A stretch of 64,000 bases of DNA, taken from contig CALLLI010000036.1 of NCBI GenBank assembly GCA_938082635.1, positions 17,370 to 81,369 on the forward strand, written 5' to 3'. The stretch is from an uncultured Verrucomicrobiales bacterium. Lineage in GTDB: Bacteria; Verrucomicrobiota; Verrucomicrobiia; Verrucomicrobiales; DEV007. The notes under the pieces are model-generated. The model was not told the origin of the DNA. It did no database searches and saw nothing but the letters and a program-made list of their open reading frames with translations. Made by a program: the position numbers and the translations under genes. This document shows positions 4,848-54,900 of this stretch, one piece after another. Position 1 is the stretch's first letter. Each line of letters starts with the position of its first letter.

Positions 4848-5402
4848 ATGCCCATCATCAACCTCAAGCCGCGCACTACAGCCCAACCCAAGGTGGAAGC
4901 GAAGCCGACGTTGGAAGCGCTGTTTGAGGCGGAAGAAACACCTCTGCTACGCTTTGCCCACGGCATCGTCCGACGCCGTGAGGTGGCGGAGGAGATGGTG
5001 CAAGAAGCCTTCATGCGGCTTCACAACCACTGGGAAGAGGTTGTGAAGCCGCGTGCTTGGATCTACCGAGCCGTCCGCAATCTCTGTCTCTCCCACTTAC
5101 GAAACAACTCCCGCGAGACAGAACTCGATGAAGAGCGCGATGCCCAGGCGGCCGAGAGTCCCAAACCCGATGAGACTCTCGGCCGCTTGGAAGCGGTCGG
5201 CATGGTGCGCCTACTCATGACCGAGCTGGAAGAGAGAGACCGCCAGCTCATCCAACTCAAATACTTCGAAGAGCAAAGCTACGCGCACATCGCCAAAGCC
5301 ACCGGTCTCAGCGTGAGCAATGTCGGCTACCGCCTGCATCACCTGCTCAAAGGCCTCGCCGTCTCCCTCCGTCAAGCCGGCGTCGCAGACAGCCAAGGCT
5401 AA
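4848..5402 (+). CDS. ECF-type RNA polymerase sigma factor
   Basis: Sigma region 2 (ALFEAEETPLLRFAHGIVRRREVAEEMVQEAFMRLHNHWEEV...RAWIYRAVRNLCLSHLRNN) and region 4 (DRQLIQLKYFEEQSYAHIAKATGLSVSNVGYRLHHLLKGL). Confidence 0.93.
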   Translation: MPIINLKPRTTAQPKVEAKPTLEALFEAEETPLLRFAHGIVRRREVAEEMVQEAFMRLHNHWEEVVKPRAWIYRAVRNLCLSHLRNNSRETELDEERDAQAAESPKPDETLGRLEAVGMVRLLMTELEERDRQLIQLKYFEEQSYAHIAKATGLSVSNVGYRLHHLLKGLAVSLRQAGVADSQG

Positions 5403-5426: not shown

Positions 5427-8400
5427 ATGAAACCCGAAGATCCAAACGTCCAAGCCTGGCTCGAACCCGAGCTCGAAGCCCGCCTCGTCGCGTCGCTCCT
5501 TGGAGAAGCCTCCGCCTTCGAACAAGCGGAACTGGACCGACTCCTCAAAGAGCGGCCCGAAATCGCCGTCTTCCAACGCCGCCTCCAAGCCGTCCACGGC
5601 CTCGTCGATGAAGCCGTCAAGCAAGGCCCCGATGACGACTGGAAACTATCGAAAGACAAACGCACGAAAGTGCTAGAAACAATCCGTGGCACCGCCAGCC
5701 AAGACGAAACCCCTAGCAACGTCATCGCACAGAAGCAATCCAAGCGCCAATGGATCGGCATCGCCGCAGCCGCATCGGTAGCGCTATTCGCAGGCGCCGT
5801 CGCGATGGTGAACACGATGACAGGGCTCCAGTCCAGCGATAGCGCGGACATCGCCATGACCAGAGAACGCGAGGACTACGGAGTGGAACCCAACGTCGAT
5901 GCCAAGATCGCCAGCGCTGCCAAAGAATCATTCGGCGATCTCGCACAAGTAGACAACTACGCCTATCAAGTTTCCACCACACCAAGCAAACCCCGATACT
6001 TTCAAACCGAGAATACAGGCGTAACCCTCAAAGTCGCTCCCCAGGTCGGCCCCGATGGCTACACCATCGACATGGACCTCGTTCCAGAAGTCGTCGAGTT
6101 CGACGGCTTTGCAATCTACGAACCTAAGATTGCCGCCACCAAACCTCAGTCGACCAGCGACGACCTCGCCAAACTCGGCGACTTGGAGAATTCAGCAGCG
6201 GGTGAAGCACTCGCCTATCATGAAAGCCAAGAAGAACAATTAGGCGAACTTGACCAAGCTGAACAACGTTTCTACGAAGTTCTACGTGATGATAAATTCA
6301 ATTCAGCCGCTCGCCAAGGAATCGAACGCGTTGAAAGAGACCGTAGTCGTCACCTCTCCGCAGCTTATGATCAAACGCGTGCAGAGCTAATCGATAAAGT
6401 GGACGAGGCGTGGGAAACACCCGCCCCAAAGGCATCGGCAGCCACCGATGAAGAAAAAAAAGCGCAGCCCCAAGCCCCAGAGCTACTCGCTCGTAGTAGC
6501 CGCGAAGCGGAAAGCAAAGAGGCTCTCGGATTGATCAATCAAGAAGCGCTCACCGACAACCTTACGGCCTACGCTGTAACACCCGCCACGGGGGATGATC
6601 CCCCAGAACTCGCTCAAGAATTTGGGACGACTCAGAGCCGCTCAGACGCCCCAGAAATTAATGTGCACGGTCGTCCTCGCATCGATGCGTTCAAAACCAC
6701 ACCTGAGATCATCACCCGATCAGGATCGACAGCCAAGGTCGAGGTCGTTCGCGAATTGATCTACCCAGATGAATTCGACGCGGCTAAGCTTCCCCAAGAA
6801 GTTGTCGCTACCGACGGAGCCGTTGCTTTTCCAGTCACCCCGCCCACACCAACGCACTGGAAATGGAGCTTTGAATCGGACGAATCCAAACCTTCAGCAA
6901 GTAACACGCCCAACCTTGCACAGGCCCAGGAACAACCTGACCAGCTATCCTACTTTGCGACACAAGACACGGAATGGGCAGAGAGCGGATCGACCGAATC
7001 GCTGAACTGGGCATCTCAACCAGGGATGATCCGCACCTATCCACCAGCTAACGACAGCGATCGCCAAGACGCCCCCTCCATCGAAAGCACTCAAGTTGGT
7101 GGCGCACTTACACGCTTCGAAAACATAGCTGACTACGTCACCTTTGAATTCAGTGATCCTGATAGCAAATCTCTCGCAGAGAACAAATCTGAACCCTATG
7201 CAGAACTAGCGCCCGACAATGAAGCCAGCTTTGGTCTGATTGCTGGCTTCAACCTGATAGACCGCAATTTGAAGCGTGATGAGGCAGCAACTGAAGAGTT
7301 CTTTGAAAATGATCCCGAAGCGATCTCGCCTGCTCCTGGCGTCTTTGCGGTGGCCGGCGTCCTAACTGATCCACAGTTCCAAACTGTCTTGCAAAGCGAT
7401 GCGATGAAAAAATGGACCGGTTCGAGAGGAGGTTCAGAAGTAGAAGGGCTCGCGAAAGGACTTCGCTCAAGCAGTGAATCGATTGTTGACAACAACCTTG
7501 ATGCCTTGATCACCACGCTTGAAACGGCCCCACTCATAGCTCCCGAGAAGGTAGTCGCTCTTGCAATTGCGTCGCCTAAATCCCCTGAGCAAGTCGCACT
7601 TACTCAGCAAAGCATCAAAGTAGAAGAAGCTCGCCTAAGAATGCTAGATTTCGCTGAACGGTATCGCGCCATCGATCTCGCTGCCATGCAGAACCGAGCT
7701 TCCGAAACAGGGGAACCTTTGCAAGAGGAGGAGAGCGTGCAACACTCCTCGCAGGAGAAAGAGAAGGAGAAGGAGCAACGCTACGCGAAGGCGAAGAAGG
7801 ACTACGAAGCAGAGAAGCAGAATCTTCGTGGCTTCGAAGAAGGACGGCTCAGCGAGGCGTTGGTTCAAAAGGACTTCAAAACACGGGAGACCATCCTTCA
7901 GCAGCAGTTGGACAAAGTTGCCGCCCAGGAAGCCCAAGTCGCCATGCTAGGAACGCGGTATGATATCCCAACAGTTCTCAAGCGTCAGAATGAAACCGCA
8001 GGAAGCGATAGCCTCAGCCTCGCAGAGTTCGAGACAAAGAAAGACACCGCCATGGATGATCGGCGCAAGCTTGAGGAGTATAAAGAAGCCCAACAGGAGC
8101 TGGGATTCCGCAGAAAGCTTGTCGAGAAAGTTAAGCGAGCCTTAGAGCCGGCCAAATCACAAAGCCTGAACGAGAAGCACACCAAGCAAGAGCCGTTCTC
8201 TACCTTCTCGCTTCACGTGAGCGATGTCGCCTTCAAACTCGCGAAGGCAGCTTTGCTAGAACAGAACAAATGGCCTGAGGTAGCGAAGGTGCGGATCGAG
8301 GAGTTCGTCAATGCCTTCGACTACGGCGACCCTGCACCGACACAATCGGAGAAAGTGTCTTGCCAGGTCGAGCAAGCAGCCCATCCCTTTCGCCAGCAAC

Positions 8401-9497
8401 GCAATGTATTGCGCGTGGCCATGCGCACCGCCGAGATGGGACGCTCGTCTGGCACACCACTTCAGATCACGCTTTTGTTAGACACTTCAGGCTCCATGGA
8501 GCGCGCCGATCGGCAAGAATCGATTAGCCAGGCCATGAAGGTCCTCACTTCTCAACTCACTCCAAGTGACACCGTGACCCTGATCGGCTTTGCGCGCCAA
8601 CCCCGGTTGATTCAGGATCGCTTGACTGGCGACGCTTTGGCCAACTTGCCCAAGTTCGTCAAACAAACGCCCTCCGAAGGCGGCACGAATTTGGAAGAAG
8701 CTCTCTTGTTAGGTGCTGAACACGCCAGACGCCAGTTCGTCGAAGCCGGCCAGAACCGAATCGTTCTCATCACCGATGGCGCCGCTAACCTTGGCGATGC
8801 CGATGCCGAGTCCCTGCGCGATCTCGTCGTCGGACTACGTCAGGAAGGTATCGCCTTCGATGCTTGCGGCGTGGGAGCCGAAGGCTTGAATGACACGGTG
8901 TTAGAAGCTCTCACCCGCGATGGCGATGGCCGCTACTACCTGCTGAACAAGCCCGAGGACGCTAATGCTGGCTTTGCCCGCCAACTCGCGGGCGCGTTCC
9001 GCCCCGCCGCGCGCAATGTGAAGGTGCAAGTGCGTTTCAATGATCGCCGCGTGGGCAACTACCGCCTCTTGGGCTTCGAGAAGCATCGCCTGAAGAAGGA
9101 AGATTTCCGCAATGACAAGGTCGACGCGGCCGAGATGGCATCCTCTGAAACAGGCGTCGCCGTTTATGAAATCGAGCCGCTGCCTCAAGGCGATGGCGAG
9201 ATCGGCGAAGTCTCTGTCCGCTTCCAAGACATGACTACTGGCCGGATGGTCGAACGCACGTGGCCGATCGCCTACAACGCAAACGTGACAGCGTTAGACG
9301 AAGCGTCGCCATCGCTTCAACTCGCCAGCACCGCCGCCTTTCTTGGGGAGAAGCTCAAGGGCTCCACCTTCGGAAAAGCCATCAATTTGGAAGAGCTCTC
9401 TCAGGTCCTCACCAATCTAAGACAACACTACAGCTCCGATCCACGCATCGCCTCCCTGATCGCCATGATCGAGAAAGTCAAAGAGCAGCAACCCTAA
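5427..9497 (+). CDS. Membrane-anchored von Willebrand factor A (YfbK-like) protein with putative N-terminal anti-sigma-like segment and secretin-like segments
   Basis: N-terminal cytoplasmic segment, single TM (QWIGIAAAASVALFAGAVAMVNTM), coiled-coil region, vWA MIDAS LLLDTSGSMERADRQ with ...FSTFSLHVSDVAFKLAKAALLEQNKWPEVAKVRIEEFVNAFDY typical of YfbK-type proteins. Confidence 0.85.
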   Translation: MKPEDPNVQAWLEPELEARLVASLLGEASAFEQAELDRLLKERPEIAVFQRRLQAVHGLVDEAVKQGPDDDWKLSKDKRTKVLETIRGTASQDETPSNVIAQKQSKRQWIGIAAAASVALFAGAVAMVNTMTGLQSSDSADIAMTREREDYGVEPNVDAKIASAAKESFGDLAQVDNYAYQVSTTPSKPRYFQTENTGVTLKVAPQVGPDGYTIDMDLVPEVVEFDGFAIYEPKIAATKPQSTSDDLAKLGDLENSAAGEALAYHESQEEQLGELDQAEQRFYEVLRDDKFNSAARQGIERVERDRSRHLSAAYDQTRAELIDKVDEAWETPAPKASAATDEEKKAQPQAPELLARSSREAESKEALGLINQEALTDNLTAYAVTPATGDDPPELAQEFGTTQSRSDAPEINVHGRPRIDAFKTTPEIITRSGSTAKVEVVRELIYPDEFDAAKLPQEVVATDGAVAFPVTPPTPTHWKWSFESDESKPSASNTPNLAQAQEQPDQLSYFATQDTEWAESGSTESLNWASQPGMIRTYPPANDSDRQDAPSIESTQVGGALTRFENIADYVTFEFSDPDSKSLAENKSEPYAELAPDNEASFGLIAGFNLIDRNLKRDEAATEEFFENDPEAISPAPGVFAVAGVLTDPQFQTVLQSDAMKKWTGSRGGSEVEGLAKGLRSSSESIVDNNLDALITTLETAPLIAPEKVVALAIASPKSPEQVALTQQSIKVEEARLRMLDFAERYRAIDLAAMQNRASETGEPLQEEESVQHSSQEKEKEKEQRYAKAKKDYEAEKQNLRGFEEGRLSEALVQKDFKTRETILQQQLDKVAAQEAQVAMLGTRYDIPTVLKRQNETAGSDSLSLAEFETKKDTAMDDRRKLEEYKEAQQELGFRRKLVEKVKRALEPAKSQSLNEKHTKQEPFSTFSLHVSDVAFKLAKAALLEQNKWPEVAKVRIEEFVNAFDYGDPAPTQSEKVSCQVEQAAHPFRQQRNVLRVAMRTAEMGRSSGTPLQITLLLDTSGSMERADRQESISQAMKVLTSQLTPSDTVTLIGFARQPRLIQDRLTGDALANLPKFVKQTPSEGGTNLEEALLLGAEHARRQFVEAGQNRIVLITDGAANLGDADAESLRDLVVGLRQEGIAFDACGVGAEGLNDTVLEALTRDGDGRYYLLNKPEDANAGFARQLAGAFRPAARNVKVQVRFNDRRVGNYRLLGFEKHRLKKEDFRNDKVDAAEMASSETGVAVYEIEPLPQGDGEIGEVSVRFQDMTTGRMVERTWPIAYNANVTALDEASPSLQLASTAAFLGEKLKGSTFGKAINLEELSQVLTNLRQHYSSDPRIASLIAMIEKVKEQQP

Positions 9498-9558: not shown

Positions 9559-9606
9559 GTAGCACGGGCTTCCAGCCCGTGTCCTGGGCAGGATGCCCAG
9601 GCTACC
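9559..9606. repeat. REP-like double hairpin
   Basis: gtagc-acgggcttccagcccgt-gtc-ctgggcaggatgcccag-gctacc: two adjacent perfect stem-loops (ACGGGCT/AGCCCGT, CTGGGCA/TGCCCAG) enclosed by GTAGC/GCTAC. Confidence 0.9.
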
Positions 9607-9611
9607 CTATC

Positions 9612-12600
9612 ATGAAATCATTCATCGCATTCGTCAGCCTTCTTCTGGCATCTATCAGTCTCGCTCAAGAGCCCGTCGAGATGCCTTCCACATCTAGCGG
9701 ACTCCTCATTATCGACACCAAAGGCGTCGCTCCCAAACCCGCCCTCTTCTTTGCCGCCGATGCCCGGGCCACCATCCAGCTTACGCACGAAGCCATCACT
9801 CAAAGCATCACTGTCGACGTCCACGTGCTCCAGGGCACTCCAGATGTCATCACCCTAGCACTCTTCGGCGAGGGTAAGATCACCGCCGTCACGGGAGAGC
9901 AAGTTCAGTTCTGGGCCGTGCGCCAAGGAACCGGCGAGGACGCCGCCAAACGGTTCTTAGAGATTCGACCAAAGCTTCCGAGCAAAGACGCGCCTGCCCT
10001 TTCGGCCTTCCAGGCCACCATCACAACAACACAAGCGATCGAATCGCTGCCCACGACCACACAGATGCTCACCTTGGGCCCAGGCGAGTCCGCCGGCTTC
10101 TCAACTCAGCTCGAGATCGTCTCCGATGACACCGTGTCTCCCGAGGTGACCGACAGCACCGGATGGCTCTCCGCAACAGCAGCCGAAGATGACGGGCCAC
10201 TCCGTTTTCAAACCACCGGCAATAACACTCTCGCCCTGCAGCTAGAAGCGCGTGGGGTCGCGGCCAACCTCGTTGAGTTCACCAAGGTCCGTTTAGAAGG
10301 CCAGGTAGATTCCGACACTCAAAGTGCTTCCTTCACCCTAACGGGCACCGCCATCGTGCGCGATGAGAGGGGCGGCAAACTGAAACTCTTGTCAGGACAA
10401 GCAGCCCTCCACGAACTTCCCGCAGAGGCTTCCTATCAAGTCCATCTCCGCGCCCAAGGCGAGGGCGCCCCTTACTACGAGCTTGAGTTCACCGAAGCCG
10501 GTGAGTTTCCCATCAGCCTCAACATCGACGCCCGCTTGCAAGTCAAAGGCGAATGGCAGGCTTTCGACTTCACGATTCCCGCCAGTGCCATTGTTCCCAT
10601 GCGCCTCACCGGCCTTCCCGAAGATCTCCGCTTCGACAGTGCTCGCGCCGTCTTTCCGACACGTTCAGACAACGATTGGTTAGGCTTTCTCCCGCCAAGT
10701 GGCCGAGCCGCCACGGCCTGGCGCAGCGGAAAGGAAGAAGAAGACGGCAAGCTCTTCTTTGCCACTCAAGAACAAACCGAGGTCAGTGTCAGTGCAGGCC
10801 TTCTTAGACAAGCCCTGCTCCTCCAAGTCAGCATCCTCCAAGGCAAACTCGACAGCGTGCAGGTCGACCTCTTCGGCGAAGGAGAGATTCTCGCAGTCGA
10901 AGGCCAAAATGTGCTAGGCTGGACGGTAACACCTGGCGAGGACGGCGCTCGGCGTTTGGAAATTCCTCTAAGCCAGGCGATCGAAGGCCAAGCTCAGTTC
11001 CTCATCCGCAGCCAAACGCCCGTCGGTGCCTTTCCCGTCACGGCTACGCCAGTGCGCCTCGCTCCCGTCGATTCCGTGAGGCACTCTGGCAATCTACGCA
11101 TTGGCAACCAAGGCGCGGTGCGTTTGCAACTTTCTGGGCTGGCCGGCATGACGCAACTTTCTACCGATCAGTTTCCTGGTGAACTCAGCCTAACAAACGG
11201 CGCCACGCAGGTCTACGTCTACCGTTTGCCTTCAGCAAACTATGCTTACGAGATCCAGGCAGACCAGATCACTCCAGAAGTGAATGTTTCCCAAATCGTG
11301 GTCTATCACATGGGCGATTCCGATCGACAGATCAATGCCGCGATCGAACTCGACATCCGCGACGCCCCACTTCGCGAATGGGAACTCCAGGTTCCGGAAG
11401 ACTATGCCGTGGTGTCCGTGACGGGTGCCGATGTCGTCGATCATATCCTGAGCAGCCAAGCCGACAATGGCACACGCAGTCTCAAAGTCCTCTTCGGCAG
11501 CATGGTCTCTGGCCGCCGTCTGCTCAATCTTCACCTAGAGAAGAATGAGGCACCCGCTGCTGGCGACTGGGCCCTTCCAACGCTCACCTATCCCGGCGCA
11601 AAGTCGGTTCGCGGTCATTTGGGCATTTCCGCCACGGCTGGCTATCGCGTGAGTTCGGGAACCACTGAAAAGCTTTCAGAACTCCCCCTGACACAGTTTC
11701 CAAAGCAACAAGAGAACCTTCAACAAGCCTACCGGCTTCGCGAACCCGACTGGAGCGCGACCATGACGGTGGAGGCGCTGGGCCAGAGTGTTCAAGCAGA
11801 CGTCTTTCACCTCTATGCCCTGAAAGAAGGCATGGTCTACGGCAGTGTTCTCCTCAATTACTACGTGGTAGGCGCGCCGGTCAGCAACTGGCGCCTCCAG
11901 GTCCCAGCTGAAATGGGCAATGTCGGCATCGATGGCGAAGACGTCCAGACGTGGCGGCGTGAAGGCAACGAGATTTCCGTCACCTTACATGAGCCCGCCT
12001 TAGGGCCATCTACTTTGCTCATGACATTTGAACAACCCATGAGCATAGAGGGCGGCGCCCTCGCACTCGGAGCCGTCACCCCGTTGGAGGTACAGGGAGA
12101 ACGTGGCTTCATTCAAGTCGTCAGTCCCTATCAAGTGCAGCATGAGATCATGCAAGCTTCTGACAACCTGCTTTCACTAGAGGCGAACGAACTTCCGACA
12201 GAATTTCGTCTTCTAACGAGTGCGCCTTCTCTCATCGCCTATCAATATGGAGCGCGCCCTTTCGAGCTCGCCATGAATATCCAGTGGCTGACTCCCGGCA
12301 AGACCGTAGACCAGATGATCGAGTATGCCGACCTCAGCAGCCAGATCTCACGAGATGGCCAAGTGGCGACCACAGCAGTGTTTCATGTGAAAACCCGAGG
12401 CCAGCAAGGCCTTCGATTGCGCCTACCCGATGGCGCCACCCTCTGGGATGCCCAGGTGAATGACAAAGCGGTCAATGCCCGCGCCGATGGCGACTTCACC
12501 GTCATTCCCCTGTCAGCGGCCAACGAGCCTAACCAAAGCGTCCGCGTGAAAGTCCGTATGGGGCAACCTTCTGTCGATCCCTCACACCCTATCATTGGCG

Positions 12601-15600
12601 CACCGGCTGCCGACTCCCCGATCATGATCCATGCTTGGAAAGTGAAGAGCGATCACGGCCAACTCTTACTCCCCAAGGGTGACGCGGCCAAGCAACTTGC
12701 CGCTCCGGTGCTGACAGAGACCGGGTTCGAATGGCTTCTCGGAAACCGCGATCACTGGGAAGTCAGTTTACTCGTCCTGGCCCTGGCCCTGGCCATTATC
12801 GGCTCTTGGCTCGCAGGCAGCACTCAACGTTGGCGCTTGTTTCTCGGTGGACTCGTCATTCTCGCGGCCGCAATCTTTGCTGGCTTTCTTGCCCACCAAG
12901 CTCACGACCAGGCTCGGCCAAACAACACCAAACTTGAGATCATCGCGCCCGTCGTGTCACCAGGCGAGCCTCTGACCGTGTCGTTAGCCCATGTCTCACA
13001 CTTCAGCGCGATGATGCAGCCGGTCGGCATCGGCCTGATAGTGATTGGCCTAGGATTGTTCTTTCTAAGAAAGAGACTCGCCACCTGCCTTGGCGTGATG
13101 GCGATAGGCGTCGGCCTGCTCATGCATCCGTTAGGCGCTCCGATATTCTTCGGCGCTCTCGCATTGTGGCTCTTCTTTCATCGATTCGTTGGGTGCTGGC
13201 GTGCGTTGCTAGGGTCTCCTCCGACTCAGTTTCGTGCTGAGGCTGAGTCGGCCCCTCCCACGCCGCCAGCCATTTCCACACCACTCTGGTTGGCCTGCGC
13301 TCTCAGCGCGGCTGCCCTCTTTGGGGGTGCGGATTTTGCCCAAGCTGCGGATGTTTCTGCCAGCACCCTAACTCAGCGCTGGAAGATCGAAGGCCAGCGC
13401 CTCTTTGGCGAGTTCGAGATCTCCACCAGCGGAAAGGCCGGTGACAGACTGCGTCTTCTCAAAAACCCCGCCGTTCTCACCGCCTTCACAGCCACCAGCG
13501 GTGACGTACGCGTGGCCCGTCGCGCCGTCGACGGTGGTGTCGACTATGATCTAGTCCTTGAGGCTGATGGACGCATCTCTGGGACCGCGACCTTCGAGAT
13601 GGCTCTGGAACAGCCCTTGTCTCGAGTGAACTTCCCCACCGGCATTGCAGCAGTCCACCAGATGGAGGTCACCCTAGATCAGTCAAGCTGGGAAATCACC
13701 TCACCCGCAGCCGTGCGTTTGACGACAGCGCAAGAGGGAGACGCCAACCAAAGTAGCGTCGCTCTCTCAGTGGGCTCTCAAGGAGAACAATGCCTTTCGC
13801 TGGCGCCGCGCACACGGGACCTTGGTTCCGAGACGTCGCAGTTCTATGTCGAAGTCGATCAGGTCTTTCTCCCGAAGCCCGGCGTGATCGATGCCCGGCA
13901 TCGCATCGTGGTCCGGCCTTCTCAAGGACGCGTCCGCGAACTCACGATGCTCGCACCTAACGGATTCACCGTCAGTGATGTCCGATTGGAAGGATTGCGC
14001 AATTGGCGCTTTGATCCCGATACTCGCCAATTGCGAATCGAGCTAGAAACAGCCCGAGCCGATGGTTTTCAGATCGCCGTGTTCACCCAGCAAGGGTTGG
14101 CAGGGCTGCCTACCGACGCCACACTCGAACCGTTGCGAGTCGAAGGTGCCGCCGGAGAAGTTGGCATGCTCGCTCTCGCCTTTGGGCCAGATTCCCAACC
14201 TGAGTCCGTGACTGCCACCGGCCTTTCCGCAGTCAATTTAGAAGACTTTGATGCCAGTTTGTTAGGCAAACGCGAAGGCAATCCCCTCGTTCTCCATCGC
14301 GTCTACCGGTATGGGGCCGACCCAGGAAGCCTTGCTTTGCGAGTCACGGGCGTTGATCCAGAGATTCGCATGACGACGAGACAAACCCTCTCGTTAGGCG
14401 AAGAGCGCTTGGTTCTTGTCATCGATCTCACAGCCTCCATCACCCGAGCTGGCCTCTTCCAACTACGATTCCCGATGCCTGCAGGCCTCGATGTCGAGGC
14501 GATCAGCGGTTCTCACCTTGATCACTGGTCCGAGGTCACCGAGGACGATGTCCGCCTTATTATCCTCCACCTAAAGGGGCGCTCTATGGGTGAGCTCACC
14601 TTCGCCATCAGCCTAACAGGCACTGCACCAGGTGCATTAGACTCTTGGAACGTCCCAAGGTTCACGTTAGAAAACGCCGCACGCGCCACTGGAGAACTTA
14701 TCATCAGTCCCGATCTCGGCATTCGCGCTCAAGCCGTTTCCAGACGGAATGTTTCTCAGTTAGACACTCGTAAGATCGCTCGCAAACAGGCAGGCACGCT
14801 CGCTTTCCAGCTCTTGCAGGAAGAGTGGGAACTTGCGCTCCGTATCGAGCAACTCGAGCCTTGGGTTACAGCTCAAACACTCCAAGAAGTCACCCTGCGT
14901 GAAGGCCAGACACGCACCCGCCTTGCGATTCACTATCAGATCGAGAATGCCGCCGTCAAAACACTCCAACTGCGCTTGCCAGGCCTGAGCCCAACGGATG
15001 AACAATCCGTGCACGCCACGGGCGAAGCCATCAGTGACCTTGTCAGAGTACCCGAGACCGAGGATCTCTGGGAGATTCGTTTCCAACGTGGCATGTTGGG
15101 CGACGTCCATGTGACCATTGATTTCCAGCAACCGGCTGATCGCTCGGTGAATCAGGAAGCCATCGCCCCGGTGATCCTATCAGAAGTGCGCCAGGCTACC
15201 CACTGGATGGCCGTGCGCAGCGTCGGTAGGCTCGGGCTCTCGTTAGCAGAAGCGGATCGGCGTTGGCAAACGGCCGATTGGGGCACCGTCCCAACCAAAC
15301 TGCGTCAAACACGCCAAGGAGACACCCCACGACTCTGCGTCAGGTCGATCGCCCCCGATCAGCCGCTCCAAGTGCGAGTCGAACGGCACGCGGTGGCAGA
15401 AGCTCTCAAACTGCGCGTTTCCAAAGGCCAACTCACGACGCTTCTCTCCGCTGGAGGTGCCCAAGTCACCAAGGCGGTGCTCAACATCGACGTCGCCGAG
15501 AAGAGCCCGCTTCGTGTGACGTTGCCCAACGGCTCGACACTCCTGAATGCCTTCGTCAATGGGCAGAGCGTCGATCTTGTGAACGAAGGCGAAGGAAGCA

Positions 15601-16490
15601 CGTATGCGTTCTATGTCTTTCCCCAGGACGGCTCGCCGACTGCGCAGGTCTCCTTTGCCTATGGCACCTACGAGTCTCAGTCCCGAACCACCCTGGCACT
15701 GGTGGCACCCGCCCTTGAGCTTCCACTTCAAGACATCACCTGGCAAGTCGTGTTGCCCAATGGCTACACGCTGAAGAAAAAGGTCGGGATGTTAGAACTC
15801 AAAAGCTCCGGTAAAGAGATCCGTTTCGATGTCGACCGTTACCAAGCTGCTCAAAAACAACGGCAAGCCCAACAGGCACAGAACGCCAGAACCTTGCTAG
15901 AACGCGCCAACTACTGGCTACGGGAAGGCCAACAAGACAAAGCACGCGAAGCCTTACAAAGCGCGAGCCAATCCAATTCACTCGACGCCGCCTCAAGTGA
16001 AGATGCCCGTGTCCAACTGCGCCAGTTGCAGACCGAGCAAGCACTCCTCGGCCTCAACTCACGGAGACAGTCCGTCTATCTTGAGAACCGCATTGAGACA
16101 CCCGAATTCGCCCGAAACGAACAGCTTGAGCAAGCAGCTCAGTTCAACGTGGTCCTACAGGGCCAGCTAAACTACGACCCGAACAAGGTAGATGATTTCT
16201 TGTTAGGAAACACCGCCGAAGAGAACAGCGCGCTCAAACGCATGGCCGGCCGACTCGTTAGCCACCAACAAGCCGCCGACCTTGGAGTGCGAGGACTCGA
16301 AGTGTCCTTACCAGCCCGCGGCGAACTTCTGACATTCCATCGCAGCGTGCAGGTCGACGGCAGCGAGCCCCTTCGACTAGAATTGACCCTCAGCCCGGAA
16401 GGCAAGGTGCCCTGGTGGTTCATCGGAGCGACCGTCCTCCTGCTAGGGCTGCTCGCCATCGTAGGATCACGTAATCGGGTAAAGGGATAG
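9612..16490 (+). CDS. Giant multi-domain membrane protein of unknown function (~2292 aa)
   Basis: ORF 9579..16490; ATG at 9612 gives signal peptide MKSFIAFVSLLLASISLAQ. Beta-rich repeated ectodomains, TM cluster mid-protein (SLLVLALALAIIGSWLAG, FLGGLVILAAAIFAGFLA, VGIGLIVIGLGLFFL), C-terminal TM (WWFIGATVLLLGLLAIVG). Confidence 0.85.
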   Translation: MKSFIAFVSLLLASISLAQEPVEMPSTSSGLLIIDTKGVAPKPALFFAADARATIQLTHEAITQSITVDVHVLQGTPDVITLALFGEGKITAVTGEQVQFWAVRQGTGEDAAKRFLEIRPKLPSKDAPALSAFQATITTTQAIESLPTTTQMLTLGPGESAGFSTQLEIVSDDTVSPEVTDSTGWLSATAAEDDGPLRFQTTGNNTLALQLEARGVAANLVEFTKVRLEGQVDSDTQSASFTLTGTAIVRDERGGKLKLLSGQAALHELPAEASYQVHLRAQGEGAPYYELEFTEAGEFPISLNIDARLQVKGEWQAFDFTIPASAIVPMRLTGLPEDLRFDSARAVFPTRSDNDWLGFLPPSGRAATAWRSGKEEEDGKLFFATQEQTEVSVSAGLLRQALLLQVSILQGKLDSVQVDLFGEGEILAVEGQNVLGWTVTPGEDGARRLEIPLSQAIEGQAQFLIRSQTPVGAFPVTATPVRLAPVDSVRHSGNLRIGNQGAVRLQLSGLAGMTQLSTDQFPGELSLTNGATQVYVYRLPSANYAYEIQADQITPEVNVSQIVVYHMGDSDRQINAAIELDIRDAPLREWELQVPEDYAVVSVTGADVVDHILSSQADNGTRSLKVLFGSMVSGRRLLNLHLEKNEAPAAGDWALPTLTYPGAKSVRGHLGISATAGYRVSSGTTEKLSELPLTQFPKQQENLQQAYRLREPDWSATMTVEALGQSVQADVFHLYALKEGMVYGSVLLNYYVVGAPVSNWRLQVPAEMGNVGIDGEDVQTWRREGNEISVTLHEPALGPSTLLMTFEQPMSIEGGALALGAVTPLEVQGERGFIQVVSPYQVQHEIMQASDNLLSLEANELPTEFRLLTSAPSLIAYQYGARPFELAMNIQWLTPGKTVDQMIEYADLSSQISRDGQVATTAVFHVKTRGQQGLRLRLPDGATLWDAQVNDKAVNARADGDFTVIPLSAANEPNQSVRVKVRMGQPSVDPSHPIIGAPAADSPIMIHAWKVKSDHGQLLLPKGDAAKQLAAPVLTETGFEWLLGNRDHWEVSLLVLALALAIIGSWLAGSTQRWRLFLGGLVILAAAIFAGFLAHQAHDQARPNNTKLEIIAPVVSPGEPLTVSLAHVSHFSAMMQPVGIGLIVIGLGLFFLRKRLATCLGVMAIGVGLLMHPLGAPIFFGALALWLFFHRFVGCWRALLGSPPTQFRAEAESAPPTPPAISTPLWLACALSAAALFGGADFAQAADVSASTLTQRWKIEGQRLFGEFEISTSGKAGDRLRLLKNPAVLTAFTATSGDVRVARRAVDGGVDYDLVLEADGRISGTATFEMALEQPLSRVNFPTGIAAVHQMEVTLDQSSWEITSPAAVRLTTAQEGDANQSSVALSVGSQGEQCLSLAPRTRDLGSETSQFYVEVDQVFLPKPGVIDARHRIVVRPSQGRVRELTMLAPNGFTVSDVRLEGLRNWRFDPDTRQLRIELETARADGFQIAVFTQQGLAGLPTDATLEPLRVEGAAGEVGMLALAFGPDSQPESVTATGLSAVNLEDFDASLLGKREGNPLVLHRVYRYGADPGSLALRVTGVDPEIRMTTRQTLSLGEERLVLVIDLTASITRAGLFQLRFPMPAGLDVEAISGSHLDHWSEVTEDDVRLIILHLKGRSMGELTFAISLTGTAPGALDSWNVPRFTLENAARATGELIISPDLGIRAQAVSRRNVSQLDTRKIARKQAGTLAFQLLQEEWELALRIEQLEPWVTAQTLQEVTLREGQTRTRLAIHYQIENAAVKTLQLRLPGLSPTDEQSVHATGEAISDLVRVPETEDLWEIRFQRGMLGDVHVTIDFQQPADRSVNQEAIAPVILSEVRQATHWMAVRSVGRLGLSLAEADRRWQTADWGTVPTKLRQTRQGDTPRLCVRSIAPDQPLQVRVERHAVAEALKLRVSKGQLTTLLSAGGAQVTKAVLNIDVAEKSPLRVTLPNGSTLLNAFVNGQSVDLVNEGEGSTYAFYVFPQDGSPTAQVSFAYGTYESQSRTTLALVAPALELPLQDITWQVVLPNGYTLKKKVGMLELKSSGKEIRFDVDRYQAAQKQRQAQQAQNARTLLERANYWLREGQQDKAREALQSASQSNSLDAASSEDARVQLRQLQTEQALLGLNSRRQSVYLENRIETPEFARNEQLEQAAQFNVVLQGQLNYDPNKVDDFLLGNTAEENSALKRMAGRLVSHQQAADLGVRGLEVSLPARGELLTFHRSVQVDGSEPLRLELTLSPEGKVPWWFIGATVLLLGLLAIVGSRNRVKG

Positions 16491-48982: not shown

Positions 48983-51900
48983 ATGAATACGAGCTTTCGA
49001 CGTCCTGGGGCGCTTCTTCTATTTCTGCTACTGTGCGTGCTAGGAACGGCACCCGCAGAACTAGTACATCGGTGGAACTTTAACAACGCGGCCGGCGCCG
49101 CTCCTGCTGGCACCACGGTGACGGATTCCATTGGCAGTGCTAACGGAACCATCTTGGGTACCGGTGCCACGCTCACCGGGACAGAGGTGTCGCTTCCTGG
49201 AGGCACGTCAGCGACCTCGCCTGCCTTTGTAAATTTGCCTAACGGATTGCTCTCGAGCCATGCAGCGGTAACGTTTGAGGCTTGGTACACGGTCGACGCG
49301 ATTCAGGACTGGGCCCGGGTGTGGGACTTCGGTTCAAATTGGTTAGGCGAGTATGACGACTTCGCAGAAACGTCAAGCGCTCGGGATTCGTTTATGTTTG
49401 CCCCGCATCGAGGCACAAACTTAAGCAATCAGGAGTTAAGTGTGCGAAATCAAGATCCAGCTACACTTGGAACCGGCACGTCAGCAACTGGGGGCACTGT
49501 TTCTACACAGGGAAATTTCACCACCACCACCGGCACCCGCTATCATGTGGTCGGCGTCTGGGATTCCTTCCAAACCGGCGAATCTCGAATCACCTATTAC
49601 CGAGATGGCATTCGCGCCGCGACTGTGGTCGCTCCCTACGTGGCAGCTGACATGAACGACATTAATAATTGGTTAGGTCGTTCCAATTATCTGTCAAATG
49701 GCTATCTTGAAGGAAGCATCGATGAATTCCGGATTCACGACCATGCCATGTCAGCTTGGGAGGCCGCACTGTCTCATCAGTTGGGTTCTGAAATCATAGA
49801 TAGCGATAGTGATGGTTTGCGAGATGAGTGGGAGACGTATTTCTTCGAAAATCTCGCGCAAGCAGCGAGCGGGAATACAGATGGCGATGCCCTCACGCAT
49901 GCCCAGGAACAGGCGCGGGGCGCTAATCCTACAAAGCCTGATACGGATGGCGATGGTTTGATGGATGACGTCGAGACGCGAACAGGAATCTATGTTTCAA
50001 TAAGTGATCGCGGGACGGACCCCGGCGAAGTGGATTCGGATCACGATGACTTGGATGATGCTGTCGAATCAGGGACTGGAAGCTTCGTCTCGGAAACGAA
50101 TACCGGAACCAATCCTAGCCATATTGATAGTGATGGCGACGGATCAGATGATGCGTTCGAGGTCCGCGTCGGACGAGATCCCAATAGCGCAGCAAGTGTG
50201 CCTACGCTGCTGGCTGATTCGGCTTCTGGTTGGAGCTCCTCTGGAATTCAGGGAGAGAACGGGTGGACCTTTGGATATCGGGATGTGGCCATGTCGATTG
50301 CCAAGGCATACGACCCTATCAATGACTTCGAAGATTTTCCTACAACGTGGTGGACTGGCTCCTACTGGGATCATCCGAATGGAAATCCTCCTTGGACAGA
50401 AATCCGGGAGGGAAGTTCTCATCCAGGATCAGAGAGCATTGATGCGACTACAGAACTCGACGGAGAAGTACAATGGCCTGTCAGGCGTTGGCTTTCCACC
50501 TTGTCCGGCGAGAAAGCGGTGACCTTGGCCTTTCATGTGCGCAAGACACATACCACGTGCGGCAACGGTGTCACCGCCATCATCGCTGTGAATGGGATTG
50601 AGCGCGGGCAAATCGTGATCGAATTCGATAATGAAGACGGGGCATGGGGAATCGTCCCACTGAGCGTGCAGCCGAATGACATCGTGGATCTCATTCACTC
50701 TCCCATGGGCCCAGACGGAGAGTTCAGTGAGGGGTGTGATGGTTCTCAGTTGCGCTTGGAGATTCTCGATGCGGCAGACAGCGACGCAGACGGCCTAGCA
50801 GATCTTTGGGAAATGGCCTGGTTTAATGACTTGGACGAGATCGGCACGAGCGATCCAGACAATGATGATTTGAACCATTTGGGAGAGCAGCGCTGGGGCA
50901 CCAATCCCAACGACGATGATAGTGACGACGACACGTTGAAAGATGGCGTGGAAACCGCGACCTGGGTGTATGTCAATGCCAGCAATCGCGGCACGAGCCC
51001 CGTCTTAGCCGATACCGATGGCGACGGCCTTAGCGATGCCGTTGAAGACAACAGTGGAACCTTTGTCAGTGCCACACAGACCGGCACGAACCCCTTGCTG
51101 ACAGACTCAGATACGGATGGGTACCGCGATGACAAGGAAATCGCGGTGGGAAGTCTGCCCACCTCTTCAGCAAGTGTGCCCGTGAATGGCGCAGGCTTGT
51201 TAGCTTATTGGGACTTTGACGACGCAACGGACCCAACAAAGGCACTCGACGAGGTGGCTGGCCGCGTCGGTATCTTTGATAGTAGAGCTGCATTCTCGGC
51301 AGACACGGGCGGCCACAGTGGCACGGTCGGTGATCGCTCGCTTGATCTGGGTACCTCGCAAGTAAATCAGCGAATGCGTTCACTGGAAACAGCGTGGCTG
51401 CATGGTGCGGCGGCGCGAGACACGATCACGGTATCATTCTGGCAGCAGCTCGATGGACTGACGGCCTCAAGCGCCTTCTGGATCGACTCGCCAACGGTGG
51501 ACCGCGCGGCACAGGCACATGCGCCTTGGTCGAACAACAACATCTCTTGGGACACAGGAGAAGGCTACGAAGATGATACACGACTCAACGTGAAGGTGCC
51601 CGCTGACACCGATGTGACCTCCGGCTGGCATCACTTTGTCTTCGTAAAAGAAGGCAATCGCAAGTCTGTGTGGCTCAACGGCACGTTGTTAGCATCAGGC
51701 GTCAACAGCGGAGAGCTCGCCTTGGACATGGAGACGCTCACGGTCGGTGCAAGTCGAACAGGCTGGGGAAGCATCAGCGGACAAATCGATGAATTTTCCA
51801 TCTTTGCTGACGCGCTCAACTCTACTGACATTGCGGCATTATCTGGCGGCAGCACGCCTCTCGATATCCGGCCAATCATTGATACGGATGATGATGGCAT

Positions 51901-54900
51901 GACGGATGATTGGGAGAACCAGTTCGGACTGAACCCTGCAGTGAACGACGCGGCACTGGACAAAGACCTCGATGGCGCGACGAACCTAGATGAGTTTCGT
52001 TTGGGAACAGATCCCATCGTGAATCCCTCGCCATTCTTGAGCGCCGGCAATTGGCGGGTGCGCATGGTCCGGAGCGACGATGGTCTCTGGCACTTGAATT
52101 CGGAGCCCTACCGTGTGGGCGTGTTAGAAGTGCTTCGTCCTCGGCACCGCTCCGTGACAAACGAATCGCGCACCGAGGAAGCCCTGATCAATTTCAAAGG
52201 AGATCTCTTCGACAACTCGTGGATTTTCGGCGGCTCCGTCCAGCCATTCCCGCTCTTTGGACTGTATCAACGGGAGCAGCACTATGCCATGGAAGTCACG
52301 GGTGCCATCTATGCGAAAGCTGCTGGCGACGTGACGTTAGGCTTCAACAGCGGCGATGGCGGCGCGCTATGGATCGATGATCAACTCGTGGCCATCTACA
52401 ACCAAGCACGTGGTCGTGACAATACCTTTACCACGGTGACGCTCACCGAAGGCCTCCATCGGTTACGCTTTGTCTATTGGAATGGCGAAGGCAGTTCTGG
52501 CGTGAGCCTCTTCGGTGGACGTGGCTACGGTCCGATCACTGAGGTGACGACCGGTACTGTCCAGCTATTGCAGGCCTTTGATGTGCATGAAGTGGCCACG
52601 GCCGATGCCGACATGGACGGAATGGACGACTTCAAAGAACAGCTCTTCTTTAGCAACTTAGCTAGGGATGGCTCAGGCGATGCTGACGGTGACAATCTCA
52701 CGGACACAGCAGAGCTGACAGCTAAGACTGACCCGACCAAAGCAGACACCGATGACGATGATCTAGATGACGAAACAGAACTGTTAGCATCAAGTGACCC
52801 TCGCGTGGCGAATATCGGAATCGATACGGACAGTGACAGCTTCGACGATGACTACGAGCAACTCGTGGGCACAGATCCACTGGCGAATGGCAGCTATCCA
52901 GGTGCCTACACGGGGCCTTTAGTAGAAGTCACGTCTTACGAGCAAGACTTCACTGGCGTTGCCGATGGCACACTCGAGCTATCAGATGGTTCGCTCATCG
53001 TGAATCGGCAGCAGGAAGCAGCCATGGTCGAAGGTGAAGCCCTTCGCCTCAGTGACGCGACCATTGGCTCAGCGCGAGCGAACTATGCGCTCCCCTCCAT
53101 GGGACGCGCCCCCACACAGAGTTTCCAAGCGAGCTTCCTATTCAAGCTGGCCACAGGCAATACTGCAGGAGACGGGTTTTCATTCAATTATGGCGCCATT
53201 GACGCCAATCTCACAGGCAGCGAAGAAGGCTTCAGTCGCGGGCTCTCCATTGAGTTTGATACCTGGTCTGACGGAACGCCCGAGGATCCCATTGGTTACA
53301 ACGTCGCTGTGGATGGCACCGATGTCGCTGGCGGCTCCAACCCACAGGCCATTCCAACCGATGACGCCTGGCACACCGCCGTGATCACCTGAGAGAAGGC
53401 TGGCGCTACTTCCGGCCAAGCCAATTTCGCAATCGATGGCACCCCCATCTTCACCAATCTCCCCACACCTGGCTTTGTGCCTTGTGAGGATGCACGAATC
53501 ATCTTTACGAGTCGCACAGGCGGCGCACGAGAGGACGTGTTTATCGATGACATTGTGGTGCTCACCCCAGCCGATCAAACGGACAGCGACAATGACGACT
53601 TGTTAGACTCTTGGGAGCAAGCCTACTTTGAAAATCTCACAGCAAGCGCGACTGGCAACCCCGACGGAGATGGACTCACAAATCTTCAGGAACAGACCAA
53701 CGCCACTTCGCCCAACGCTGCGGACACAGATCTTGACGGGCTGTTAGATCACTTCGAAACGAATACGGGTGTCTTTGTCAGCGCCACGAATACCGGCACG
53801 GATCCCTCAAGAGCAGACAGTGATCGCGATGGCCTGGGAGACGGACGCGAAGTCGCCGCCCTGGATCACGTGACGAATCCCACGCTCTTTGACACAGATG
53901 GTGACGGTCATGGAGATCTGCACGAACTCTTCTGGGACATGGATCCAAACGATGCGAACAGCGTCCCAGATCGCGTGCCCTTGCCCTGGTACTCTGCCTA
54001 TGATGGGTCCTGGGTTTGGCGCTTGGAGAAACTCCGCGTACTCTGGGATCGGACGTCCACCGTACCCGTGCAGAATCAGTGGCGCGAACAACGTCTCTTT
54101 GGCGCCACCGTGCAGAACACGTCGACCGATTGGGGCCGCGAGATCAATTTCACTCTCCGCTATCATGCGACAAACGGAATGGGCTTCCTACTTCGCGCAG
54201 ACAATCTCGGGGTGTTAGAGCGCCCCTCAGGAAACGGTCTTTCGCGGAATGAATGGCGGCCCAATGACGACTGGAACGATCCGTTAGGCTTCTCGGGTGT
54301 CGGACGTATGGATGAATCCGATCCGTTAACCTTCGAAGCCCGTGTCTGCCCAGGAGAGGATTCGCCCTCCGGCGGCATGGTCCTCCTGCGCTTGATCAAT
54401 GAACGAACAGGCGACGTCGTCGTGGAAGCCAGGGAAGCGGGTATCAGTCCTGCGTCACTCCGAGATGGGTCTGCCGTCTGGTTGTCCCGTTACAACGAGT
54501 CAGAGGGCACACTATGGTCAGCGCCTGGAATCAACGTGACCATGGGGCCTCCCCAAGCTCCACTCGACTCAGATGACGACGGCATGACAGATGCTTTCGA
54601 AACGATGCATGGCTTGAATCCAAACGACGCTTCAGATGCCGGGCTTGATCCTGACTTGGATGATCTCACCAATTTCGAAGAAGCTTTCTGGATGACAGAT
54701 CCAACCGTGGCGCATTCCGACAGCGATGGCGTCAGTGACGGGGAAGAGGTGCGACGGGGCTACTCACCGACGTCGGATTCTTCGACACCTCCATACTTCA
54801 GTTTCCCCCCCCCAACAAACCGCGAAGACATCGACGGCAATGGCCTAACGGACCTCTGGGAGAAATCGTTAGGGCGTGGTCAACCACTGGATCCCGATGG

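Follow-up and report, generated by a model that had tools for sequence, protein, structure and literature searches.

Why should a protein that is laid out like a membrane-anchored regulator contain pieces of a type IV pilus secretin, and contain them in shuffled order? The question is raised by one gene in the window, by which we mean the whole stretch of 64,000 nucleotides analysed here, from an uncultured Verrucomicrobiales bacterium. A first-pass annotation had described four secretin-like blocks (a to d) in the product of this gene and had suggested that the protein may mimic, dock to or regulate a secretin or pilus machine.

Secretin segments in permuted order within an anti-sigma-like/vWA protein

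The blocks were said to lie between an anti-sigma-like N-terminus with a transmembrane segment and a C-terminal vWA domain, and this layout is right (Table 1). The N-terminus gives a weak profile match to an NCBIfam anti-sigma model (22.6 bits, cut-off 100). The C-terminal third contains PF12450 (E=7.5e-14), PF00092 (2.7e-11) and PF12034 (7.8e-24), all three above their gathering thresholds (51.9/25, 44.4/23.8 and 85.3/25 bits, respectively), and the DxSxS motif of the MIDAS is intact (DTSGSM, residues 1019-1024). When the window protein was searched against the PDB, the vWA domain was the only match, and a locus search with the whole protein returned a single vWA-only relative, from another phylum. 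A single-sequence AlphaFold model of residues 131-920 (mean pLDDT 43.5) predicted helices at block b and in the Wzz part only, with pLDDT of 60-78 in parts of these two helical pieces and below 50 for blocks a, c and d; this model is too poor to judge the fold and says little either way.

Table 1 Features of the mosaic gene and its neighbours, in positions of the window.
Feature	Position	Strand	Basis
ECF sigma factor gene directly upstream of the mosaic gene	4848..5402	+	Pfam
Mosaic anti-sigma-like / YfbK-type vWA protein, 1356 aa	5427..9497	+	open frame, Pfam
N-terminal anti-sigma-like cytoplasmic region	5427..5711	+	34-60% conserved in orthologues; NF052375 E=9e-5, below cut-off
Single predicted transmembrane stretch, WIGIAAAASVALFAGAVAM	5751..5807	+	sequence itself
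Block a, secretin beta-domain segment, nearest S1	5952..6143	+	HMM 663-726
Block b, secretin TPR segment, nearest S2	6234..6473	+	HMM 188-267
Block c, secretin beta-domain segment, nearest S2	6696..6860	+	HMM 617-679
LNWASQPGMIRTY (WASQPG piece), like Verru_Chthon cassette protein A (IGWASQPGAIRTW); short, tentative	7002..7040	+	
Block d, secretin segment, nearest S1	7308..7397	+	HMM 579-606
Block f, GLRSSSESIVDNNLDALITTL, secretin segment directly preceding d in secretins; tentative	7458..7520	+	
Wzz/Wzc (polysaccharide co-polymerase) periplasmic coiled-coil segment, residues ~722-907	7590..8147	+	phmmer
vWF_A N-terminal, vWA (MIDAS motif DTSGSM) and YfbK C-terminal domains	8175..9479	+	Pfam
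~2300-aa membrane protein directly downstream of the mosaic gene	9579..16490	+	

All four blocks were found where they had been reported. A tblastn search against the genome of the organism itself matched two adjacent secretins, open frames of 866 aa (S1) and 858 aa (S2) lying side by side on contig C47, as well as a third secretin on C291. S1 and S2 score 904 and 837 bits, respectively, for the NCBIfam Amuc_1098 secretin family (curated cut-off 750) and are genuine members of it. Identity to these own-genome secretins is 71% over 55 aa for block a (E=5.6e-18), 64% over 66 aa for b (E=5.1e-21), 55% over 56 aa for c (E=2.1e-11) and 60% over 35 aa for d (E=2.6e-6), and an HMM that we built from 50 secretins of the family recognised the same blocks with E-values of 3e-19, 3e-25, 1e-14 and 6e-10. 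Their positions on this HMM give the order a-b-c-d in the window protein versus b-d-c-a in a secretin, exactly the permutation that the first-pass annotation had given. Because a and d are closer to S1 while b and c are closer to S2, the protein draws on two secretins; in a tree, block b groups with S2 of the genomes G000 and G052 (UFBoot 93). The Amuc_1098 profile itself (NF042912) hits three stretches of the window protein (E=3e-47), and its score of 161 bits falls below the cut-off of 750. The segment corresponding to HMM 740-841, the C-terminal signature of secretins, is absent from the window protein, which has no full-length or contiguous secretin match and is not a secretin.

The secretin blocks are not the only borrowed pieces. 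The annotation had missed the Wzz/Wzc coiled coil, which matches the Wzz of a congener by phmmer (E=4e-19) and has own-genome relatives on contigs C304 and C70, and possibly two more short pieces. One of these is the WASQPG piece, whose score against L167 was reached by 0 of 2000 shuffles; the other, block f, is weak, as 7 of 2000 shuffles reached its score against S2 and its HMM E-value was 0.47. Another piece (HWKWSFES / HWYFKSDE / RWEWSFEAEG) recurs in several mosaics, including the window protein (~6854-6890) and its orthologues, and its source was not found. We are close to certain that the middle region is a collage of secretin and other envelope-protein pieces.

The genes on either side also travel with the mosaic gene. 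The product of the upstream gene matches Sigma70_r2 (8e-14) and Sigma70_r4_2 (5e-11), and a homologue, 48-76% identical, adjoins the orthologous mosaic gene in 23 of the fetched family loci. The downstream ~2300-aa protein matched no Pfam or NCBIfam family; its homologue, 37-59% identical, adjoins the mosaic gene in 20 orthologous loci, and each of the two neighbours is retained in most fetched orthologous loci. Elsewhere in the window (48983-53392) we noted a protein of 1469 aa that carries Laminin_G_3 together with a PA14 match below threshold.

Recurrence of the mosaic in relatives

We searched 76 genomes of the same family for orthologues, in which both ends of the protein are conserved and the middle is not, and read 44 relatives, of which 32 belong to the family and 12 to different families within the phylum. 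At E<0.01 the secretin HMM detected 46 pieces in 23 of the 32 family relatives. Across all 44 relatives secretin pieces occur in 30, 18 of which hold several, and in 15 of these 18 the pieces are non-collinear or repeated, so that the permuted arrangement does recur in homologues. BamA pieces were found in 16 members, Wzz/Wzc pieces in 9 and Verru_Chthon A pieces in 8, and haemagglutinin-like and outer-membrane-protein pieces are present as well. At least one of the four HMM-tested source families was found in 35 of the 44 relatives and at least two in 20, and one protein can hold pieces of up to four unrelated machines. The sets and orders of pieces vary between close relatives. None of the four sources was found in 9 of the 44, implying that these pieces are not universally required.

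With a few marginal matches and the models of vWA-type, anti-sigma and generic TPR kind set aside, a Pfam/NCBIfam scan of the 32 family proteins returned mostly envelope families (secretin, Secretin_N, STN, POTRA, autotransporter repeats); Amuc_1098 was matched by 21 proteins (best E 1.5e-104), BamA by 5 and Verru_Chthon A by 4. The sources are thus envelope-only among the families recognised. With lengths of 20-110 aa, many pieces are short and may be unable to fold by themselves. Five long copies begin at secretin HMM 38-42, three of which end at 260-263, and other copies end at 257-269; long secretin copies are found in G010, G007 and G355.

As in the window protein, the pieces in relatives can be traced to genes of the same genome. 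The middle region of G007 is 74% identical over 283 aa to its own secretin, and that of G071 matches both its own Wzz-type kinase (61% over 229 aa) and its own secretin (64% over 98 aa). G067 matches its own secretin, Wzz and BamA; G063 its own secretin (67% over 220 aa), a Verru_Chthon A-type protein and a haemagglutinin-like protein; and G065 its own BamA (66% over 38 aa), Verru_Chthon A, Wzz and secretin. In the one-contig genome G329 the secretin HMM is matched at 114-264 and then again at 39-154. In G175, a one-contig genome from another family of the class, a piece starting with VVLSPFEVKGEPLGGYAASSTLAGARVR matches more than 20 long ORFs; the three that we examined read as TonB-dependent receptors, one of them by a receptor profile, and the match falls at their N-terminal plug. 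In this TonB-receptor-rich genome, a receptor N-terminal/plug segment with an apparent TonB box stands in place of the secretin pieces (L219:3094-3996).

Some other proteins with secretin pieces were seen along the way. Four distant vWA paralogues, ~30% identical in the vWA part (L076, L077, L085 and L086), carry secretin, BamA or Wzz pieces. In G067, a BlaR1/M56-type sensor peptidase (blaR1 E=2e-19; L163:1100-3151, contig C596) is another regulator with a secretin piece, as it is joined to a beta-domain module of an Amuc_1098 secretin (E=4e-46). Two proteins of ~500 aa in the same genome (L161:424-1950 and L159:1312-2793) apparently consist of two tandem secretin c-a segments, the rest of the secretin being absent.

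Could the mosaics be products of assembly or binning, or of chance similarity between low-complexity sequences? Most of the genomes are drafts, and in one of them (G021) the mosaic gene seems split between two contig ends (L058 and L084), perhaps because repeats broke the assembly. Set against this are continuous open frames and recurrence in dozens of independent assemblies; G329 and G175, each in one contig, carry pieces, which excludes an assembly artefact. The coding frame holds every one of the 108 HMM matches, and the other five frames hold none. The secretin HMM at E<0.01 matched neither the reversed sequences nor ten shuffles of the whole set, and reversed or shuffled middle regions, like 56 control ORFs (24,925 aa), gave no match to the source families. 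Chance or low complexity is rejected by these controls, and the probability that we would still grant to an artefact of either kind is negligible.

Origin of the pieces and selection on them

A simple account would be a single ancestral fusion with a secretin, later eroded and rearranged in place. The long copies in three genomes would fit it, as would the pieces of the order-level relatives G355, G329, G255 and G321, which form one clade (UFBoot 97), implying that some pieces were inherited. In family f1, on the other hand, the pieces cluster with the secretins of their own genus and not with each other. The best match was a same-genus secretin for 32.2 of the 46 pieces, compared with 10.0 expected by label permutation (0/5000); within the genus, the preference for the own genome was weak (14.2 versus 10.6 expected, 116/5000). 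In trees, the pieces group with secretins from their own genome or genus: that of G054 with its own S2 (UFBoot 96), those of G071 and G067 with support of 93 and 92, and that of G063 inside its genus clade (100). In addition, the window blocks come from two different secretins, and the BamA, Wzz, Verru_Chthon A and TonB-receptor pieces require separate captures. The single fusion is therefore very improbable overall, and for family f1 it is rejected by the trees and the nearest-relative test.

Comparing pieces with their sources, we found synonymous differences at or near saturation (pS 0.57-0.98) together with pN of 0.16-0.33. Recent copying at the DNA level, or gene conversion, is unsupported, the synonymous sites being near saturation. 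Where it could be computed, dN/dS was 0.12-0.31, a low value to which the source branch contributes part. Between 53 and 77% of the residues are kept between piece and source despite the near-saturated synonymous sites, which is unexpected of neutral sequence at that age, so the amino-acid sequence has been kept by selection. At codon positions 1 and 2 the piece branches are faster than the source branches (for example, 52/35/90 versus 18/5/62), showing that the constraint is real but relaxed.

Rather than mimicry, this selection could reflect the need for the pieces to fold or stay soluble in the periplasm, and the main rival to the sensor proposed below builds on that point. In this explanation, an insertion-tolerant periplasmic linker gains pieces by illegitimate recombination and nothing is mimicked; only in-frame, periplasm-adapted pieces survive, and selection keeps them soluble and compatible with export. 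It would account for the different piece sets and orders in close relatives, for the relatives without any detected piece and for the faster change on piece branches at the first two codon positions, and it predicts envelope-protein sources as well. A mere spacer, however, has no need to keep the conserved residues of its source, whereas source-family residues are retained after synonymous saturation, and the motifs IxGNxxTKDxVIRREL of BamA and PEVVEFDGF of the secretin are held in many relatives even though their flanks cannot be aligned. We consider captured spacers a possible explanation, but a doubtful one.

The pieces may instead serve for docking, with each segment inserting into or capping the matching machine and thereby tethering the vWA/anti-sigma protein there; secretin beta-hairpins, for instance, would pair with secretin subunits, and the TPR segment would bind the secretin's own partner. 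That some pieces are whole modules, as the shared boundaries of the long copies indicate, and that pieces cluster with same-genus secretins are in keeping with this explanation. Up to four unrelated machines represented in one protein are hard to square with one docking place, and many pieces are too short to be a module, so we regard docking as unlikely.

A putative envelope sensor built from the cell's own proteins

The permuted order, the recurrence with different pieces, the occurrence in the coding frame only, the origin at the level of the genus, the linkage to an ECF sigma gene and the action of purifying selection are established. The reading that we prefer, at a probability of roughly 0.4 with its mechanism included, is that the protein is an envelope sensor, built repeatedly from the export and outer-membrane proteins of its host. 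The protein would be a membrane-anchored anti-sigma factor with a cytoplasmic N-terminus, which would hold the ECF sigma factor, one transmembrane stretch, a periplasmic collage and then the YfbK-type vWA domain. The collage has been assembled in each lineage from its own genes, in shuffled order: from S1, S2 and Wzz here, and from BamA, Verru_Chthon A, haemagglutinin-like proteins or TonB-dependent receptors in other lineages. As self-mimics, the segments may bind the partners of the real proteins, such as assembly partners, chaperones, proteases or machine subunits. When envelope biogenesis is disturbed, the real clients would compete or accumulate and binding to the mimics would change; the anti-sigma part would then lose its activity, possibly through proteolytic cleavage, and set the ECF sigma factor free. 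The structural side of the sensor would consist of the vWA domain and the ~2300-aa partner.

The suggestion of the first-pass annotation, that a secretin or pilus machine is mimicked, docked to or regulated, is thus too narrow, because BamA, Wzz/Wzc and other pieces are used as well; docking or regulation as such may apply. With BamA, Wzz/Wzc, Verru_Chthon A, haemagglutinin-type, outer-membrane and TonB-receptor pieces among the sources, the target would be the export and outer-membrane machinery as a whole. A further and tentative extension of the sensor reading is that the periplasmic half serves as a library of the cell's own envelope-protein fragments under continual reconstruction, an inventory from which the state of the pilus, BAM, polysaccharide and TonB systems could be read. 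Such pieces would have to match the current versions in the host, and the locus would therefore be refreshed by repeated capture from the host's own genes.

Comparison with known systems

Each component is of a known kind, whether vWA/YfbK, ECF anti-sigma or secretin. Like YfbK-type vWA proteins, the window protein has PF12450, VWA and PF12034 with an intact DxSGS MIDAS in its C-terminal third, but E. coli YfbK has been described as a free periplasmic protein (PMC12204202) whereas the vWA part here is fused to an anti-sigma-like N-terminus with a transmembrane stretch and a long mosaic region. Blocks a-d derive from type IV pilus secretins of the Amuc_1098 family, PilQ in Akkermansia (PMC4960237), here permuted and lacking the C-terminal signature. 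In its predicted architecture, with an adjoining ECF sigma gene, a cytoplasmic N-terminus, one transmembrane stretch and a periplasmic sensor region, the protein resembles RseA-type ECF anti-sigma factors. The nearest parallel in principle is the sigma-E system, where unfolded outer-membrane proteins trigger, through their C-termini, the cleavage of RseA by DegS (PMC6737893), and envelope-protein segments are thus already known as signals. In that system the peptide acts on DegS from outside, whereas here the segments are built into the putative anti-sigma protein itself.

Chimeric or composite genes are mostly single fusions of whole domains. The mosaic gene differs in that a single locus has been remade time after time with numerous short pieces of host envelope proteins in shuffled order; it shares with genes that arose by fusion or partial duplication (PMC5992828) that a new gene is made from parts of others. 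Our search of a library of open-access papers found no paper that joins Verrucomicrobia, vWA and ECF sigma or secretin, and no description of such a self-mosaic regulator. To our knowledge, a repeatedly rebuilt, permuted and selected collage of self envelope segments is new, and we base this newness on what the sequences show, not on the function that we propose. Automatic annotation may mislabel such proteins as secretin or BamA homologues.

Point changes and the exchange of whole domains are the usual routes by which regulators evolve their sensor regions. At this locus, in at least three families and numerous genera of one class, shuffled in-frame pieces of the host's own envelope machines have repeatedly entered one orthologous gene, where selection has maintained them. 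Should these pieces act as mimics, they would represent a new way of building an envelope-stress sensor, and the collages would provide a natural catalogue of the short PilQ, BamA, Wzz and TonB-receptor motifs that are recognised in the periplasm.
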